Assembly (NCBI RefSeq): GCF_024171765.1
Contig: NZ_JAMTCI010000004.1
Location: 1-64,000 of the forward strand
Direction of reading: 5' to 3'
Length of the DNA: 64,000 nt
Origin: Williamsia deligens
GTDB lineage: Bacteria > Actinomycetota > Actinomycetes > Mycobacteriales > Mycobacteriaceae
The notes under the pieces: model-generated
The model's database searches: none
What the model was told of the DNA's origin: nothing
Seen by the model: the letters and a program-made list of their open reading frames with translations, nothing else
Shown here: piece after piece, positions 1 through 8,151 of the stretch
How the letters are laid out: every line of letters begins with the position of its first letter
How positions within the stretch are numbered: position 1 is the stretch's first letter
Translations under genes and position numbers: made by a program

Positions 1-1472
1 ACCACGCCTGGGCTACCGACGTCACCGACGGCACCGGTGGGCGCCAATGCGTCGCCCTCGACAGCGGCCGTCAGCTCACCGACCTCGACGCCGTCGTCCT
101 CACCCAGGGCCACCTCGCACTCGAACGCTCCACCGACGCCCAGATCAGCGCCCTCACCGCCCACGCGGCGGCGACCGGGTCGACGTACCTGCCGCCGCAG
201 AACGCCGCCGACGCCGACCTGTCGCGCATCGCAGCGGGCGAACCACTGCTGATCCGGGGACTGGGACTGACGTTCTTCGACTACATGACGCTGCTGACCA
301 TCGGACGCGGGGGAGCGATGACCAGCACTCCCGCCGGTCCGCGCTACGTCCCCTCCGGTAACGAGCCCCACATCTACGCCGGATCCCGACGCGGCGTTCC
401 CTACCACTCCCGCGGCCACAACCAGAAAGGCGTCGAGGGCAGACACACACCCCGGCTGCTCACCCCCGACGTCATCGACGCCCTGCGCGAGCGGGCCCGG
501 CAGCGCCACGACGTGGATTTCCGCCGCGACGTGTGGCCGCTGATCGCGGCCGAAGTCGAGTCGGTGTACTACGGGCTGCTCGTCCAGAACCGGTTGAGTC
601 CGAACACCATCAGCGAACTACAAGCCCGCTACCTCGCCACCGACCCCGACGAACGCCACCGCATTCTGGCGGACTACAACATCGAACCCCACCTGCACTG
701 GAGCTGGACCGGCCTGCTCGACCCTGCCGGCGGCCGCCACTTCTCGACCCCCGCCGACTACCGGGAGTGGGTCGTTTCCTACCTGTGCCGCGACGTGACC
801 TTGGCCCGCCAAGGCAACGTGCGTGGCGCAGTGAAAGCGGCGCTCGACGTGCTGCGCGACCTGCGCAACGAGGTCCGCCTCATCGTCGACCACGCCGGCA
901 TCACCGGCGACTCCTACCGCGAACACCTCGACCGCTGGTACACCCCCTCCAACGCGTTCCTATCCATCGGCCCACCCGCCCACAAGATCGACGAACTCAT
1001 CGCACTGATCCGCGTCGGCGTCGTCACCCTCATCGGGCCACGAGCAACGTTCACCCCAGACCCCGACGGCGGCTTCACCGCATCCTCCAGCGAAGTGCCC
1101 GGCAGCACCGTGCACGCCACCAGCCTGCTCGACGCCCGACTACCCGAACCCGACATCCGGCGCACGAGCGACGTTCTGCTGCAACGCCTCCTCGCCCGCG
1201 GCGACGCGCGGCCCTACATTCTGACCAATCCCGACGGCAGCACCTACGAGACCGGCGGCCTCGACGTCGCCGAAGCCAACCACGCCATCATCTCCGCGAC
1301 CGGCACACCACATCCCCGTCGCTTCGCGCTCGGCGTGCCCACCGAATCCGTGCGCTGGGTGACCGCCGCAGGCCCGCGGCCCGGCGTCAACTCCGTCACC
1401 CTCGCCGACGCCGACGCCATCGCCCGGTCCATCCTCACCTTCGGCACCCGTCGTAGCACGGTCGCCGCCTGA
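1..1472 (+). CDS. FAD/NAD(P)-binding protein, CreE/FzmM-like (5' end missing)
   Basis: Open reading frame (frame beginning at base 3) already running at the left edge, so the N-terminus with the dinucleotide-binding folds lies outside the window; 489 residues are visible. The segment LLIRGLGLTFFDYMTLLT followed by IGRGG is typical of large actinobacterial FAD-NAD(P)-binding proteins (NAD_binding_9 type). The stop at 1470-1472 is followed 14 bases later by the start of a fumarase/aspartase-superfamily lyase, which suggests an operon. In known clusters, a large flavin monooxygenase (CreE, FzmM) that oxidises aspartate to nitrosuccinate is paired with such a lyase (CreD, FzmL). That function is inferred from family and neighbour; it could be another N-hydroxylating or orphan flavoprotein. 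Confidence 0.7.
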   Translation, partial: HAWATDVTDGTGGRQCVALDSGRQLTDLDAVVLTQGHLALERSTDAQISALTAHAAATGSTYLPPQNAADADLSRIAAGEPLLIRGLGLTFFDYMTLLTIGRGGAMTSTPAGPRYVPSGNEPHIYAGSRRGVPYHSRGHNQKGVEGRHTPRLLTPDVIDALRERARQRHDVDFRRDVWPLIAAEVESVYYGLLVQNRLSPNTISELQARYLATDPDERHRILADYNIEPHLHWSWTGLLDPAGGRHFSTPADYREWVVSYLCRDVTLARQGNVRGAVKAALDVLRDLRNEVRLIVDHAGITGDSYREHLDRWYTPSNAFLSIGPPAHKIDELIALIRVGVVTLIGPRATFTPDPDGGFTASSSEVPGSTVHATSLLDARLPEPDIRRTSDVLLQRLLARGDARPYILTNPDGSTYETGGLDVAEANHAIISATGTPHPRRFALGVPTESVRWVTAAGPRPGVNSVTLADADAIARSILTFGTRRSTVAA

Positions 1473-1486
1473 CAAGGACTCCACCC

Positions 1487-2944
1487 ATGACTGAGAACAC
1501 CATCCTCAACCCCATCTACGCCGGGCGCCCCATCGCGCTGCTCACCAGCGACTCCGCCTGGCTCGACGCGATGCTCGAGGCCGAGATCGGCCTCGCCGCA
1601 GCGCAAGCGCAACTCGGCATCATCCCGACCGCGGCCCGCATCGACATCGAAACCGGCGCCCGCGCACACCACTTCGACCTCGGCCGCATCGCCGTGGCCG
1701 CCCAAGGTGCCGCCAACCCTGTCGTGGCGTTCGTCGACGAACTCACCACCGCCGTGGCTGCCATCGACGCCGACAGCGCCAACTACGTCCACCGCGGCGC
1801 CACGAGCCAGGACATCCTCGATACCGCAGCGATGCTGATCGCCTCGCGCGCACTGCAGCTCATCGTCGAGGACCTCACCGACACCGCCCGCTCCCTGGCC
1901 CAGCTCGCCCGAGCACACCGCACCACCCCCGCCGCCGCCCGCACCCTGGCCATGCACGCCGTGCCCACCACCTTCGGCGCTAAATGCGCCACCTGGCTCG
2001 CCGGAGTGCTCCACGCCCGCACCCGCTGCATACGGGTCCGCGAATCGTTGCCGGTCCAACTGGGCGGCGCCGCCGGCACCCTGGCCTCCTACCTCCAGGC
2101 GGCCGATCAGTCACCCGCCACCGACTACAACCACGACACCCTGTGGGTCCACCTGACCAACCACTACGCCGACGCCGTCGAACTGCGCCCAGCACCGATG
2201 CCCTGGCACACCACCCGCACACCGCTGGCCGATATCGCTGCCGCACTCAACGTCACCGCCGGCGCGCTGGGCAAGATCGCCGTCGACGTCATCTCCCTGG
2301 CCAGAACCGAGGTCGCCGAAGTCCGCGAACCCGCTGCCCCTGGCCGCGGCGCGTCCTCGACCATGCCGCAGAAACGCAACCCCGCCATGAGCGCCTTGAT
2401 CCGCGCCGCCGCCACACAGATCCCCTCGCACACCGCAGTGCTGTTCACCTCGATGGTCGCCGAAGACGAACGCCCCGCAGGCGCCTGGCACGCCGAATGG
2501 GACTCACTACGCTGCGCCCTGCGGCTGGCCGGGGGCGCGACCGCGACCGCTGCAGAACTGACCGCGGGCCTCGAAACCGATCCTGACCAGATGGCCCGCA
2601 ACCTCGAAATGACTGGTGGACAGATCGTCACCGAACGCCTCTCCGCGGCGCTGGCCACCCACCTGGGCAAGAAGACCACCAAGGAACTCCTCACCCGCGC
2701 CGCCTTCGCCGCCCAACGCAACCGCACCTCCCTCGACCACGAAATCCTCGCTACCCCAGACCTGCGTGACGCATGGTCGGACACCCAGCTCCGCGAACTC
2801 CTCGACCCCACCCACTATCTCGGCGCAGCACCATTCATAGTCGACCGTGCACTCGAGCTGTTCGCGAACTCGTCCGCAGCACATCAGATTGCCACCCAGG
2901 CCTCCGTTACCGAGCACGACGGCGCGGTCGCAGCGCGTGCATGA
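1487..2944 (+). CDS. Aspartase/fumarase-superfamily lyase, possible nitrosuccinate lyase (CreD/PcaB-like)
   Basis: 485 residues. The superfamily signature loop is clear near residue 288 (GRGASSTMPQKRNP, holding the catalytic serine region) and the first conserved block near residue 101 reads HRGATSQDI, as in the 3-carboxy-cis,cis-muconate cycloisomerase (PcaB)/CreD branch. No other protocatechuate (pca) genes are nearby, which argues against a muconate role. A long flavoprotein gene lies just upstream, the arrangement seen for CreE-CreD, where CreD splits nitrosuccinate into fumarate and nitrous acid. Assignment to the lyase superfamily is firm; the substrate is inferred. The last bases overlap the next gene by 8 bases, suggesting translational coupling. 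Confidence 0.75.
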   Translation: MTENTILNPIYAGRPIALLTSDSAWLDAMLEAEIGLAAAQAQLGIIPTAARIDIETGARAHHFDLGRIAVAAQGAANPVVAFVDELTTAVAAIDADSANYVHRGATSQDILDTAAMLIASRALQLIVEDLTDTARSLAQLARAHRTTPAAARTLAMHAVPTTFGAKCATWLAGVLHARTRCIRVRESLPVQLGGAAGTLASYLQAADQSPATDYNHDTLWVHLTNHYADAVELRPAPMPWHTTRTPLADIAAALNVTAGALGKIAVDVISLARTEVAEVREPAAPGRGASSTMPQKRNPAMSALIRAAATQIPSHTAVLFTSMVAEDERPAGAWHAEWDSLRCALRLAGGATATAAELTAGLETDPDQMARNLEMTGGQIVTERLSAALATHLGKKTTKELLTRAAFAAQRNRTSLDHEILATPDLRDAWSDTQLRELLDPTHYLGAAPFIVDRALELFANSSAAHQIATQASVTEHDGAVAARA

Positions 2945-3974
2945 ACGCACCACCAACTTCACCGTCGACGCCGACCTCACCACCTGCCTCGACGGGCACA
3001 CCCAGCACGGCGACGACCTACTCGACCGGTGGGACGGCACCACCCTGGTGCGCACCACACCCGACCCACTGCACGAGGGCCTGGTAGCGCTCGCCCTCGA
3101 TCTCCGCGCCGACCGCCACCGCACCCACGTGCGCGCGACTGCCGCAGCGGGTCGCCCACTGAGCGCGCACGACGTGCGGGGTCTGGCTACTGCTCAGTTT
3201 CGTCTGCCGAACGGCGAGCTCGAGCAGCTGTGTGCCGCCGACAGCCAGGTGAACGCCGCCCTGGGTCACTACCGATCGATGGCACTGTTGCGTACACCCG
3301 ACCTGCTGCACGCCGCCGCCAGAATCGTTACCGCCCAGCAGGTCCACGGCCGCCTAGCCCTGCGGCTACGCCGCGAACTCGTTGAACGGTTCGGCACCAT
3401 CGTGGCCGTCGGAACCCATCAGGCTGGCGTAGTCTCCGCCCGTCACCTCGCGACCACGACGGCCGACGACATGCGCGTATTCGGCTGCAGCGCAGCCAAA
3501 GCAACCACCCTCATCACGCTCGCGCGATTGATCCTCGATGGTGAACTCGGCCGAGAGTCCCTGGGCGCGCTGGGCACCGATGAAGTCATCGCATGTCTGC
3601 GCGTCGTTCCAGGCATCGGCCAGTGGAGCGCGGAATGGCTGGCCATCCGAACGTTCGACCGCGATCGTGTCGTGGCCGGGGATCTTCTTGTCCGCCGCGC
3701 CATTGGGTGGCTCTACGGCCTAGACGACCCCCTCGAACCCCGAGCACGCGCACATACGAGGTACTGGGGCCCGGCCAGCGTTTTCGCGCAGAGTGCAGCC
3801 GTAGACGCGCACCGCCGAGAGCTCTACGAACCAGTAGGCGTCATCATCGGCGTGAGCGACGGCGTACCCGCGTGGCTCGTCAAGGGCGTAAACCGACCGT
3901 TCCAGGTCGCTGACTCGGTTGCGCAGGATGTCCATGAGAGTGACCCTGCGTTGGGCGTACTCGACTATCGATAG
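2937..3974 (+). CDS. AlkA-like DNA-3-methyladenine glycosylase II
   Basis: 345 residues from a GTG start that lies inside the end of the lyase gene; earlier in-frame codons are antisense-like. The HhH-GPD glycosylase core is recognisable: AARIVTAQQV near residue 130, a helix-hairpin-helix VPGIGQWSAEW near 223, and the candidate catalytic aspartate about 14 residues after it in RVVAGDLLVRRA. Members excise alkylated (or deaminated) purines and hand on to base-excision repair. Overlap with the lyase gene suggests co-expression, consistent with protection from nitrosating or alkylating chemistry. Beyond about residue 280 the sequence stops looking like AlkA and is antisense to a protein-like reading on the other strand, so the C-terminus may be replaced by a rearrangement. 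Confidence 0.75.
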   Translation: MHERTTNFTVDADLTTCLDGHTQHGDDLLDRWDGTTLVRTTPDPLHEGLVALALDLRADRHRTHVRATAAAGRPLSAHDVRGLATAQFRLPNGELEQLCAADSQVNAALGHYRSMALLRTPDLLHAAARIVTAQQVHGRLALRLRRELVERFGTIVAVGTHQAGVVSARHLATTTADDMRVFGCSAAKATTLITLARLILDGELGRESLGALGTDEVIACLRVVPGIGQWSAEWLAIRTFDRDRVVAGDLLVRRAIGWLYGLDDPLEPRARAHTRYWGPASVFAQSAAVDAHRRELYEPVGVIIGVSDGVPAWLVKGVNRPFQVADSVAQDVHESDPALGVLDYR

Positions 3975-4736
3975 AGGTGGACCCGGGTCTCGCATCCATC
4001 TTTTTCCGTCGTGTGTAGCTTCGACGGATCGGCCAGTGGCGAAATACACCGCCCGCAGCAACGCCAGGAGGGGACGGTTGTCGACTGGTCCTGAAGACCG
4101 ACGTTGTGGTCACGCGCCGCCCGTAGGCGTGTGAATCGACCTCAAGCGCTTCGTTTTTGGCAAGCTCTCGATCAGCTGCACTGTTGAAGATGGCCGACAT
4201 GCTGATGGGGTGACCGCCGTAGTCAATTCGCAGCCCCAACATCGGACACACCGACCGAGTCCGAATATCGATCCGGTTGTAGGGGAACTGATCTGCCATC
4301 TCGACGAGTCGGACGATATCGGAGCGCCGGGTTCTGTGATGACTATTGTCGATTCCAGGCGGAGCTTCTCGTACTGCTCTCGGACCACACGACCGGTGAT
4401 TTGCGGGACCACTGTCTTGCCGAGTGCTTCCTGGATGCGGCCGTACAGCACGATGCGGCACTCATCGTCCGGATCGTTGCGTAGTGTGACGGGCACGTTC
4501 GGGTCTGCGTTCTGCCGCGGCCCAGACTGGACTGTCTCAATCAGATTGTCGTCGAGGAGAGTGGGCAGCGCGTCGAGAGCTGCGCCGCGGTCGACACCAA
4601 AGACGTTATGCGCATATATGAGTGCGGTATCGGGGGGTGCCCACGCGGCGGCGTTTGCTTCGGAAATCTCAAGCTCGATGATGGCTGCCATCACCGCTAG
4701 CTGTGACTGCTCGAGTTCGAGGATCGCGTCGAGCAT
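3720..4736 (-). pseudogene. Frame-disrupted unknown gene remnant
   Basis: Three stretches on the minus strand have protein-like composition and codon use but lie in different frames. The first starts at ATG 4736 (MLDAILELEQSQLAVMAAII...) and is good to about 4325. The second continues in another frame from about 4325 to 4100 (DIVRLVEMADQFPYN...). The third returns to the first frame from about 4085 downward (LLALLRAVYFATGR..., then DLERSVYALDEPRGYA). Joined, they would make roughly 320 residues of unknown function. Two compensating frameshifts and the antisense overlap with the end of the glycosylase gene suggest a decayed gene, or base errors. I do not recognise the family. Confidence 0.45.
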
Positions 4737-4759
4737 TGGTGCGCGGCCGCGGCTGCCTA

Positions 4760-5137
4760 GACCCAGAGAAGAATCACTATCGGAAGTACGGCAAGGGGTA
4801 CACGCTTAGCGCTCAATGGGCCTTGTGCCAGCTGTGTGAGGACGCGTATCAGTCGGACGACGAGGATCGCGCGGTAGCCCGGATGATGTTGTACGACAGC
4901 CCGTGGAATATTGACTGGCACATGGCGCAGCGGGCTGGGATCCCGTTCGACCTCGACGAGAGCGTTCGTAAGCCCCTGAGAGTCTTTCGAGCTGCCGATC
5001 TGGGTGCGCAACGGCTACCGCACGGGCCGAGAACCCAGGAGCGCAGACGTTTTCGCCCACTACCTGACATAATGTATCTTATCGGCGCTGGGGTGACCTG
5101 CGTCTGTCACGTTGCAGACATGCTGCCGGGCGTCTAG
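4760..5137 (+). pseudogene. Remnant of an unknown gene
   Basis: From about 4760 to 5030 this frame encodes a coherent protein-like stretch (EKNHYRKYGKGYTLSAQWAL, a CQLC pair, then acidic and aromatic residues), with codon use that fits real coding. There is no plausible start: the upstream codons are arginine-rich and antisense-like, and the tail after about residue 95 loses character. I read it as an internal or C-terminal fragment of a hypothetical protein, in the same lower-GC tract as the remnant at 3720-4736. No function can be assigned. Confidence 0.35.
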
Positions 5138-5576
5138 ACCGCTCGGTGAGCCGCTCGCCATGAACTTCGCACGGGTGGACAGCCACGGTTGGCCAGTGAG
5201 GGCTGTGTCGAACTTGGACGGGACCCACTTCAGCGCCACGTTTGATGGCCGACTGGGTCGGCATCTACAAACCAGCGCGAGGACCTCGAACGGGATTCGG
5301 CGACAATAGAACTCGCCCCCACCTAGCCACGCTCCATCCGACAATACGTCACTGTGACAAATTAACGGGCGAGACCGGTTAACTCGACAGCGTCGCACAG
5401 CACGCTCTGCGAACTTTCCCGAATTCCACGAACCCCCCAGTTGGAAACAGCTTGGGTTCGATCGCCGAGAGGCCGACAGTTGCCGGCGTTGTCCGCGCAT
5501 CCGGTTCGAGGCCCACGATGGTCAACCGATCAGAGGACATCAGTTATGGCCCCAGCCGCACACACGATGTCATCTG
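5138..5576. other. Gene-free interval
   Basis: About 440 bases with no convincing reading frame on either strand; the short open frames here are arginine-rich or stop early. GC is visibly lower than in the rest of the window. It separates the gene remnants from the lipoprotein genes and may hold the promoter of the lipoprotein at about 5700. I see no clear repeat, tRNA or insertion-sequence end in it. Confidence 0.4.
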
Positions 5577-5699
5577 ATGACTATGAAACCTCGGCCAGCG
5601 GTGTCCAGAAACAGGAGTCACCGCCGTTGGGGTAAGTCCAGCTCGACCTCACGGCGACGTGCCGTAGTGCCGGTCCCGGTGCGCGACGCGTGGACGCTG

Positions 5700-6266
5700 G
5701 TGAAGCGCGCCAATCGCCGGTCGCGGCATCTGTTCGCCGCGGCGACGTTCGTCGGGGTCCTCGGGGCCACCGGGTGCAGCGGGCAAGCCACCGATCTGTC
5801 GGCCGAGTCCTCGGGGAGCGTGGCACTCACTCAGACGTCCGCCGCAACCTGGACCTGCCCCGAGACCGTGGACAGTCCCGACTGGCCCACGCCGACCCAC
5901 ACCGCCCCGGGAAAGCTGGTCCCCGACGGACCCCGCTATGCGGTCGACTGCGGGTACGAGATCGCGCCGTCTGGGCATCACTCCGAGCGCTTCGGCCCAT
6001 CCACCACCTACACCGGGACGGCCCTGGCAACGCTGGTCACGACGTTCGCCACCGCCACGAAACTGAACCCCGGCATGAGCTGCCCAGATCTGGACAACCT
6101 CCCGAGGCATGTAATGCGATACAACTTTGTCTACCCCGACGGCGGGTCCGCAGTGGTCACCCTCAGCGGGTACTGCCCACCCGTGCTCAGCAACACCACA
6201 CTCACCCTGCAGCCAACGCAATCACCCTCCACACAACCACCGTCAGCCGACGCCGGGGTGCGCTGA
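5700..6266 (+). CDS. Putative lipoprotein, unknown function
   Basis: The frame is open from ATG 5577, but the best start is GTG 5700: it gives a basic n-region (KRANRRSRH), a hydrophobic stretch and a lipobox LGATGC with the lipidated cysteine at residue 26. The mature part (about 160 residues) has further cysteines (WTCPE, VDCGY, SCPD, GYCPP) that could form disulfides outside the membrane, and ends in a Pro/Ser/Gln-rich tail. It is followed 2 bases later by another lipoprotein gene, so the two are probably co-transcribed. Family not recognised. Confidence 0.6.
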   Translation: MKRANRRSRHLFAAATFVGVLGATGCSGQATDLSAESSGSVALTQTSAATWTCPETVDSPDWPTPTHTAPGKLVPDGPRYAVDCGYEIAPSGHHSERFGPSTTYTGTALATLVTTFATATKLNPGMSCPDLDNLPRHVMRYNFVYPDGGSAVVTLSGYCPPVLSNTTLTLQPTQSPSTQPPSADAGVR

Positions 6267-6268
6267 GA

Positions 6269-6991
6269 ATGGCGATCACGCTACGAAAGATTGGTTTTGG
6301 GTATCACTCCGAGCCAGCGGGCCGGCTACGCCGTGTGAAGCGAGTGAGAGCCTTCGTCGAGGCAGGTGCTGCCGGGTGCCTGGTTGCGCTAACTGCTGCG
6401 TGCGGGCAAACCATGGTCGACAACGGGATCTCACCGACAGGCTCGGCGTCGACGACCCGCGTGGTGGATGTGAGCTCCGTGGCCGATACCTCGATCCTCA
6501 CGAACTTGGTCGCGATTTCCACAAACATCTTTTCGGGCCGGGTGGAGTCGGCGTTGGGGGCCAAGGCGCTCGGCGCTCTACCTGAGACGCAGTTCAGAGT
6601 GACCGCCGCGGTGTCGCTGAAGGGAACGGTCCCGTCGTCGCTGACACTCAATCAACAAGGTGGCATCACCGACGGGGCGTACACCTCCATCAACGGCGAC
6701 CGACCACTGCGAATCGGTCAGTGGTACCTCTTCTACACGCGCTACCTCGATTCCCTGAACTGGTACACCGTGGTTTCCGAGGACGGTCATCCCGCGATCA
6801 CCGAGACCGAGGCCGATGACTCGGAATCGACACCGCTGTCCACGACCGCGGCCGCCGTGCGCTCGAACCCCCAGAACCAGTTCGTCGTTCCCTCTCCGAA
6901 CTCGACACCAACGCTGACCTTTCCGCCGCCACCCCCGCCCGGCCGCGAATACCCGCCACCTTCATCGCCCCCACAGCCGCGGGCAAGCTGA
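6269..6991 (+). CDS. Putative lipoprotein with proline-rich C-terminus
   Basis: 240 residues from ATG 6269; an internal GTG at 6335 would give a more usual signal-peptide length. Lipobox LTAAC places the lipidated cysteine at residue 45 (23 from the GTG). The mature domain contains a beta-rich stretch with FRVTAAVSLKGTVPSSLTLNQ and GQWYLFYTRY, which resembles small extracytoplasmic domains, and it ends in a run of prolines (PPPPPPPG and PPPSSPPQP). It starts 2 bases after the preceding lipoprotein stop. Function unknown. Confidence 0.6.
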   Translation: MAITLRKIGFGYHSEPAGRLRRVKRVRAFVEAGAAGCLVALTAACGQTMVDNGISPTGSASTTRVVDVSSVADTSILTNLVAISTNIFSGRVESALGAKALGALPETQFRVTAAVSLKGTVPSSLTLNQQGGITDGAYTSINGDRPLRIGQWYLFYTRYLDSLNWYTVVSEDGHPAITETEADDSESTPLSTTAAAVRSNPQNQFVVPSPNSTPTLTFPPPPPPGREYPPPSSPPQPRAS

Positions 6992-7034
6992 GGCTCAAGT
7001 GCAATTCGCGCGTGGAGTACCCGTACGTGAACGG

Positions 7035-8042
7035 ATGGCCGCGATGCGGCCCTGGTTTCTGGCGTTCGCCGCCGCCTGCGTGCTGCTCGCAACCGTCACT
7101 CAGTGCGACAACTTCCGCCTCTCTGTGCGTGACCCGAACAGCAACAGAATTGCCACCGAGTCGTTCCGCCCCGATCCCTCCGAGATCGCTGCCGCGCCGT
7201 CATGCGTTCTTCCCGACATCGTCGCCCGCCTCACTGATTCCTCCCCCGCGGGCCAGCCCCGGCAGGGGAAGGGTCGATACCAGGCGGGTTCACCCCGACC
7301 GGCCTGATGCGCTGCGAAGTCGGTCAACCCGCGACCGGCTCGGCAACAATCGACGAGGTCGCATTGACCGGTGATATCGCCGCTGTTGTCCAGGCCCTGA
7401 ATCGGCCGTCTGAACGCGCCCGAGAAGGCACTTTCGTAGAGTGCGCCGAGAGCCCCAACGCCCCAGCAGCGCTGTGGTTCCTCTCCCCCGCCGGCGCGGC
7501 GCGGGTGCGCTGGCCGACAGAGTCCTGTGGCGTCCAGGACGAGCCTCCGCCCACTCGAAGCACTACACGAAACGGGGCGCCGCACAGTGATGACCCTGCC
7601 CACACCTACACCTCAGGCGTGCACCGGCAGCTTCACCCGCGAGCTCGGCAGGCCCACAAAGCGTCTCGACAGCGCCGCCAAGCCGGTCACCCGACGCCCG
7701 ACGATCGCGCTGCCTGACCAGTCCGTAACCGCCACCACCATCTGTCGATACCGACTGACCGGCGCGACGAACGGTCCAGACGCCGAACCCATTGGCAGCA
7801 CTCGCCTCTCCCCCGAAGCAAGTACACAACTTCTGCACGACTCCACCGCGACCCCGACTGCCCCACCGTGCGGCCGTTATGCCACCGAAATCGCAGGTGC
7901 TCAGCTCTTTCGGCCAGACGGATCCGGCGGCGCCAACCTCACCATCGAACTCGACGGCTGCCGACGCCTGAACATTGCGCTCTTCACCACCATCCGAACC
8001 GCCCCCACCCCGCTACTGCAACTGCTCGCCGGAGGTCCATGA
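7035..8042 (+). pseudogene. Exported protein gene broken over two frames
   Basis: Three consecutive coding-like stretches: 7035-7307 (hydrophobic N-terminus MRPWFLAFAAACVLLATVTQ, then a cysteine-containing region), 7307-about 7580 in another frame (starting RCEV, with a VECAESPNAPAALWFLSP core and ending ESCG), and about 7585-8042 back in the first frame (ACTGSF, TTICRYRL, PPCGRY, LTIELDGCRR). The second and third stretches look like two copies of one small cysteine-paired domain. The first stop overlaps the next ATG as TGATG, so separate coupled genes are possible, but a single frameshifted exported protein fits better. Function unknown. Confidence 0.4.
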
Positions 8043-8151
8043 CCGGTACCTGGCTGAGAGCAGAAACTACTGGCTCTCCGGCAGAGTCGTCAGAGGCCGA
8101 ATCGCATGCCTCGTTCGAAACCTCTGCAGCCGGTGACCACGTCAGTCGTAC

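Follow-up and report, generated by a model that had tools for sequence, protein, structure and literature searches.

The aspartate-nitrosuccinate (ANS) pathway is known from pairs such as CreE/CreD of cremeomycin and FzmM/FzmL of fosfazinomycin. The nitrous acid supplied by such pairs serves to build the N-N bonds of several natural products (PMC10777205; for this and all other papers cited by PMC number, our statements refer to the portions of their text that were available). Certain other genotoxic pathways feature DNA glycosylases as self-resistance genes of their clusters, namely YtkR2, which is related to AlkD, and AlkZ of the HTH_42 family, going by the available parts of that literature. 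Here, we analyze a 64-kb stretch of DNA from Williamsia deligens (hereafter the window; the first part of contig C4, NZ_JAMTCI010000004.1, of 162,622 bases, in a genome assembly, GCF_024171765.1, of 4.41 Mb and nine contigs), which displays at its left edge, from the first base of the contig, a unit of three genes coding for a flavoprotein, a lyase and an AlkA-type DNA glycosylase (Table 1).

We posit that this locus is the visible end of an ANS pathway operon that carries a protective AlkA-type glycosylase, an explanation that we favor while giving it only about an even chance of being right as a whole. The flavoprotein would oxidize the amino group of L-aspartate stepwise to nitrosuccinate, which the lyase would cleave to fumarate and nitrous acid. 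The glycosylase, a predicted base-excision enzyme probably translated from the same message as the pair, would most likely shield the DNA of the producer from the unit's own chemistry. Its potential targets would be purines that have been deaminated, hypoxanthine for example, or else adducts left by a diazo- or N-N-type product for which the nitrous acid is used. The pair appears to be a further instance of the known ANS kind; the overlapping glycosylase is the unusual part.

The candidate nitrous-acid-forming pair

The flavoprotein frame, which is open at the first base of the contig, comprises 489 uninterrupted residues, of which residues 4-479 match residues 135-597 of 8cp2 in a phmmer search of solved structures (490 bits, E 6.2e-146); by this alignment, in which residue 4 faces residue 135, the protein lacks some 130 residues at its N terminus. 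The code 8CP2 appears in a study of the L-aspartate N-hydroxylase of Streptomyces sp. V2, which makes nitrosuccinate (PMC10404684). Eight of the nine substrate-site residues of 8cp2 that we checked are kept (Arg266, 276, 409, 412, 416, 577, 593 and Asn413), and the ninth, the tunnel-entrance Arg597, is replaced by Thr at a position that also varies among the 33 related gene pairs described below. The original prediction had called this protein FAD/NAD(P)-binding; no Pfam or NCBIfam model matched it at E<=0.1 to bear out that label, and its identity as a flavoprotein comes instead from the solved structure and the tree.

For comparison, we collected stretches of up to 8 kb on each side of related genes. 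Among 55 loci found with the flavoprotein, a lyase lies in the stretch in 14 and none in 41, one of the latter being a locus (L016) on a contig that stops 95 bases past the gene. Another 38 stretches, from other genomes, bring the set to 93 loci, comprising 33 pairs, 19 loci with a lyase only and 41 with a flavoprotein only. In a quick flavoprotein tree of 73 rows, the window protein is sister, with support 99, to eight pairs and to one Nocardia locus without a lyase. Its position, within the family of aspartate N-hydroxylases and next to other pairs, is the one that had been anticipated, with the proviso that the trees include CreD, 8cp2 and unnamed or uncharacterized relatives, CreE, FzmM and FzmL having been left out. 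In both the flavoprotein and the lyase tree, three genomes from the window's family form a close group with Mycobacterium aquaticum, which fits the mycolata host that had been proposed from the letters. No counterpart of the flavoprotein was found in the other genomes of the genus (0/7).

The open start of the flavoprotein frame could also mean that only a decayed piece of the gene survives and that the unit is dead. The frame does begin at the contig edge, a whole-genome search at E<=10 with a Nocardia homologue gave only the known part, and the N-terminal parts of homologues matched nothing at the readable ends of contigs C1-C7 (C6 and C7 being read whole). As the unit begins at the first base of the contig, no leftward extension is possible in this assembly, and the missing piece may lie outside the readable parts of the contigs, two small ones of which, C8 and C9, read as N. 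The long uninterrupted frame, its conserved residues and the intact lyase speak against decay, and we consider a dead unit improbable.

The lyase, in which the blocks HRGATSQDI and SSTMPQKRNP start at residues 102 and 290, respectively, matches the nitrosuccinate lyase model first among the NCBIfam models (NtrsucLyaStm, NF052556; 565 bits against a curated cut-off of 650), ahead of those for PcaB (385 and 333 bits) and adenylosuccinate lyase (264 and 188 bits). Among solved structures, it scores 415 bits with CreD (5xny) and 252 bits with 1re5, which we take to be PcaB of Pseudomonas putida. It keeps all 17 mapped CreD positions (in a numbering anchored on the SS loop), whereas 1re5 deviates from CreD at two of them, 96 and 170. 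A published fingerprint for nitrating lyases, E49/H118/D125/H253/R341 together with the loop SSxMPxKRNP (PMC13411527), is retained in full. This five-residue signature does not discriminate, since 1re5 has the same five residues and P. putida PcaB has a relative hydronitration activity of 2% (PMC13411527).

The lyase tree has a branch of support 100 that unites CreD, the window lyase, all 33 pair loci and eight lyase-only loci, and leaves outside 11 of the 19 lyase-only loci, 1re5 and five PurB-like rows. Its eight sister pairs (support 99 in the quick tree and 100/99 in a second tree) are those of the flavoprotein too, and the two proteins have therefore moved together. Forcing the window lyase to join 17 rows on the PcaB/PurB side costs 33 log units (p-AU 0.0038). 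Three caveats apply to this test: the long branch of the window, its deviating letter composition, and the naming of the group at a point when the quick tree had already been seen. The alternative identity, a 3-carboxymuconate cycloisomerase (PcaB) or adenylosuccinate lyase (PurB), draws on the superfamily common to all these enzymes, the fingerprint in 1re5 and the annotation of plasmid relatives as pcaB. It is contradicted by the score gaps, by the CreD clade and by the adjoining aspartate N-hydroxylase gene; we rejected it on the scores, the clade support and the constraint test, and regard its probability as negligible. The lyase did not group with PcaB or PurB, an outcome in line with the original prediction.

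At E<=1e-80, 74 of 397 sampled genomes of the order have a lyase match, PcaB-like ones included, and at nine lyase-only loci a neighbor resembles, by eye, protocatechuate dioxygenase. Among the 30 plasmid matches listed for the lyase, 22 are annotated pcaB and five as adenylosuccinate lyase family; 28 of these records recur in the list of 30 for the flavoprotein, and the plasmid lyases are probably misnamed nitrosuccinate lyases.

Two of the 33 pairs, both among the eight sister pairs of the window, are fused into one frame of 1109 residues, which perhaps constitutes a stand-alone nitrous-acid generator. Such fusion in two of eight sister pairs indicates a joint function of both proteins. The fused frames lie near ribosomal-protein and LysR-like genes (named by eye), and no relative of the AvaA6-like adenylate-forming enzyme was found in the stretches around them. 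Across the pairs, an adenylate-forming enzyme is found near 12 of the 33 by direct search, or 17 of the 33 in a looser cluster; its best NCBIfam match is a fatty-acid CoA ligase at 113 bits, with the AvaA6 diazotase second at 109 against a cut-off of 975. It is found by neither approach near any of the eight sister pairs, from which we conclude that the sister clade shows no recognized nitrous-acid consumer nearby.

The 8cp2 match, the CreD clade and the kept residues, i.e., gene identity, tree placement and active-site conservation, strongly support at the level of sequence a nitrite-releasing pair, as the original prediction had it, and we consider it very likely that the two enzymes make nitrous acid.

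The overlapping AlkA-type glycosylase

The third frame scores 25.8 bits with the Pfam HhH-GPD family (PF00730), just under the cut-off of 26.2 (E 1.4e-5), and 43.9 bits with NCBIfam PRK10308, the cut-off of which is 229. A profile of this protein and 13 relatives matches best, across both the N-terminal and the catalytic parts, 2jhn (E 2.4e-46), which we take to be AlkA of Archaeoglobus fulgidus. In all 14 sequences, G225 and G227 of the HhH motif, W229 and D248 (A1 numbering) are invariant; the predicted catalytic Asp and the HhH motif of an AlkA-type glycosylase are present. A second in-frame GTG lies upstream, at 2847, and the start chosen here fits because the relatives align from about residue 13. 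The residues after about 300 (the last ~45) have no relatives in the 14-sequence alignment and overlap an antisense frame of 113 residues, making the true end of the glycosylase uncertain.

Inspection of frames and motifs confirms the first description, with three frames, a gap of 14 bases, an overlap of eight bases and the two lyase motifs. In the gap, AAGGA precedes the lyase start. We consider it likely that the three genes belong to one operon and would be co-transcribed. The overlap alone proves little, however, as short gaps and overlaps are not rare in the window: in a crude gene call, eight of the 35 same-strand neighbor pairs, the flavoprotein-lyase pair itself being one of the eight, are spaced by -30 to +20 bases.

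Chemistry offers a further connection. Nitrous acid promotes the deamination of adenine to hypoxanthine (PMC4563847, PMC4693234), and A. fulgidus AlkA excises hypoxanthine from DNA (PMC8438529). Endonuclease V was found in none of eight genomes of the genus, the window's own included, in a search with positive controls in six of 14 genomes. From the overlap, this chemistry and the missing endonuclease V, a functional link between the glycosylase and the pair can fairly be inferred, for what is an arrangement of one genome, and we judge a protective role to be evenly balanced. The more specific scenario of a nitrous-acid generator and its antidote in one operon, the latter a co-translated hypoxanthine glycosylase in a genus with no detected endonuclease V, is put forward only tentatively, as something less than probable.

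Several observations weigh against this proposal as a whole. Beginning with the pair, three residues of 8cp2 (Arg13, Trp51 and Asn62) map to the part of the flavoprotein beyond the contig edge, on which the completeness of its FAD and NADPH sites likewise depends, and the lyase stays below the curated cut-off of its model, as likewise does the fused sister protein of L176 (614 vs 650 bits). No AvaA6-type diazotase reaches the cut-off in the genome (31 weak matches, the best with 64 of 975 bits, in a search that also matches weakly in 12 of 14 control genomes). For the glycosylase, the best solved match of the single sequence is 2yg8 (E 1.8e-8), with 2jhj and 2jhn sixth and seventh of eight. 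A full-profile search at E<=0.5 found an AlkA-like frame in none of the 93 related loci, 33 of them with the pair (a leave-one-out profile of that set recovers the window glycosylase at E 1.3e-35), and two close full-length relatives lie in stretches of 20 kb and 5.4 kb without the pair. In E. coli, moreover, mutation of alkA did not significantly raise mutability by nitrous acid, whereas an endonuclease V mutant was over 200-fold more mutable (PMC4563847); this objection may weigh less here because endonuclease V is found in none of the eight genomes of the genus.

A first competing explanation is that the pair is a normal nitrous-acid pair and the glycosylase an unrelated general alkylation-repair gene, inserted behind the pair by accident and expressed from its transcript. 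The confinement of the arrangement to one genome, the pairless neighborhoods of its closest relatives and the frequency of close same-strand spacing in the window all agree with such an accident. So does the broad distribution of weaker AlkA relatives: 33 of 61 related genomes, the window's own included, match at E<=0.001 (best other 3e-10), by which we consider distant relatives to be common, and across the phylum 58 of 396 genomes, again with its own, match at E<=1e-9 (best other 44% over 120 residues). Conversely, at E<=1e-11 the glycosylase is found in one of 397 sampled genomes of the order, its own, and in none of the 396 others (five candidates being scored per genome), hypoxanthine is a base that AlkA-type enzymes take, endonuclease V was not found in the genus, and the gene overlaps the lyase by eight bases. 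We regard a chance arrival as a serious possibility, somewhat short of probable. The built-in base-excision repair of the original prediction is plausible through the overlap, the AlkA match and the lack of a detected endonuclease V, and is weakened by its occurrence in one genome.

Other searches complete the distribution of the glycosylase. In the genomes of its close relatives, lyase relatives occur elsewhere in all 13 searched, the best at 43% (G449; locus L172, outside the CreD clade) and partial ones at 46% (G434). Plasmid records have no relative at E 1e-5, and viral contigs gave one pattern match, with none confirmed. The genome has three further HhH-GPD genes and seven relatives have two to four, counts that may be low, as this search did not list the window glycosylase.

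The second competing explanation concerns the target: the glycosylase might clear adducts of the final product of the cluster, a diazo or N-N compound, instead of deaminated bases. Self-resistance glycosylases in other genotoxin clusters and the use of such pairs' nitrous acid for N-N bonds in natural products (PMC10777205) would accord with it. The AvaA6-like enzyme is found in none of the eight sister loci, and the nine frames scanned at 3.7-12.2 kb comprise six without a Pfam family, an AraC-type regulator, an HD protein and a LysE exporter. As the upstream genes would lie beyond the contig edge, these findings are weak evidence against this explanation, which we consider unlikely.

If the glycosylase is a true partner of the pair, the ANS pathway would have its first self-resistance gene, as far as our literature search showed; self-protection against nitrosative damage to bases could be tested directly, and the gene would serve as a marker for further units. 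In that search, outside of which lay most subscription papers, the survival of nitrous-acid producers did not come up. Nitrosuccinate and glycosylase never occurred together, and neither of the two papers combining nitrous acid, natural product and DNA glycosylase has a title on a biosynthetic cluster; the available part of a review of the field (PMC11705231) has neither "glycosylase" nor "self-resistance". If it is not a partner, the locus would be one more ANS pair, from a clade in which no AvaA6-like enzyme was found nearby (0/8).

Features and surroundings of the unit

Table 1. Positions of the genes and junctions of the unit, of an antisense frame and of the two fused homologues
Feature	Sequence	Position	Strand	Basis
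Predicted L-aspartate N-hydroxylase (CreE/FzmM-type flavoprotein), first ~130 residues beyond the contig edge	Window	3..1472	+	phmmer to 8cp2, substrate-site residues, tree
14-base gap from flavoprotein stop to lyase start, with AAGGA	Window	1473..1486	+	Sequence
Predicted nitrosuccinate lyase (CreD-type), 485 aa	Window	1487..2944	+	NCBIfam, CreD 5xny score, 17/17 CreD positions, trees
8-base overlap of lyase end and glycosylase start	Window	2937..2944	+	Sequence
Predicted AlkA-type (HhH-GPD) DNA glycosylase, GTG start	Window	2937..3974	+	PRK10308, PF00730, 14-sequence profile, invariant residues
Antisense frame, 113 aa	Window	3720-4061	-	
Fused frame, predicted aspartate N-hydroxylase + nitrosuccinate lyase, genome of the window's family	L176	8375-11701	-	
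Fused frame, predicted aspartate N-hydroxylase + nitrosuccinate lyase, genome of the window's family	L183	6858-10184	+	

Directly behind the glycosylase, window positions 3975-8150 have a G+C content of 63.8%, against 68.8% before and 69.2% after, and the frames scanned there match no Pfam family; a junction with foreign DNA at this point is possible. A tRNA search of the window found none. Elsewhere in the assembly, the right ends of contigs C3 and C4 have 4601 identical bases in inverted orientation, which at a guess may be a repeat, for instance an rRNA operon, at which the assembly broke. Contig C7 (L097; 12,334 bases, entire) displays, by eye, phage tail and lysin-like genes. On contig C1, positions 2619083-2674684 hold exceptionally long frames, of 11378, 10776 and 2733 codons; their weak matches to an adenylate-forming family suggest giant peptide synthetases.

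Comparison with described systems

By gene identity, the window pair is like CreE/CreD and FzmM/FzmL in having adjacent genes for an aspartate N-hydroxylase and a nitrosuccinate lyase, CreD being the one of these four proteins compared in sequence, with its 17 mapped positions kept. Unlike the cremeomycin and fosfazinomycin units, the window has no visible diazotase or other cluster genes, the contig edge cutting off what precedes, and it has an AlkA-type glycosylase overlapping the lyase.

The enzyme of Streptomyces sp. V2 (8cp2) is homologous to the flavoprotein over residues 4-479 and has eight of the nine checked substrate-site residues in common with it. It groups (support 100) with 35 Streptomyces loci (within L010-L057) in whose stretches no CreD-like lyase was found, whereas the window has an adjacent lyase. 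Most of these 35 loci have common neighbors, such as a DedA-like protein, in clusters that span 33-35 loci.

Fusion of the two activities has already been published for SpiED (PMC11705231). By sequence, SpiED and the G245/G345 fusions combine the same two activities as the window pair, and G245/G345 belong to its sister clade; they are fused, G245/G345 as a 1109-aa frame, whereas the window has two genes 14 bases apart.

AlkA of A. fulgidus (2jhn) and AlkA of E. coli, which we take 1diz to be, are AlkA-type HhH-GPD enzymes with a conserved Asp, as is the window glycosylase by its sequence features. The latter is distant in sequence from both and has a C-terminal tail of its own of ~45 residues without aligned relatives. 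Finally, YtkR2 and AlkZ resemble the window in the placement of a glycosylase gene beside a genotoxic pathway; in the available accounts they belong to other protein families than the window glycosylase, and the damage to be countered here would perhaps be nitrosative.

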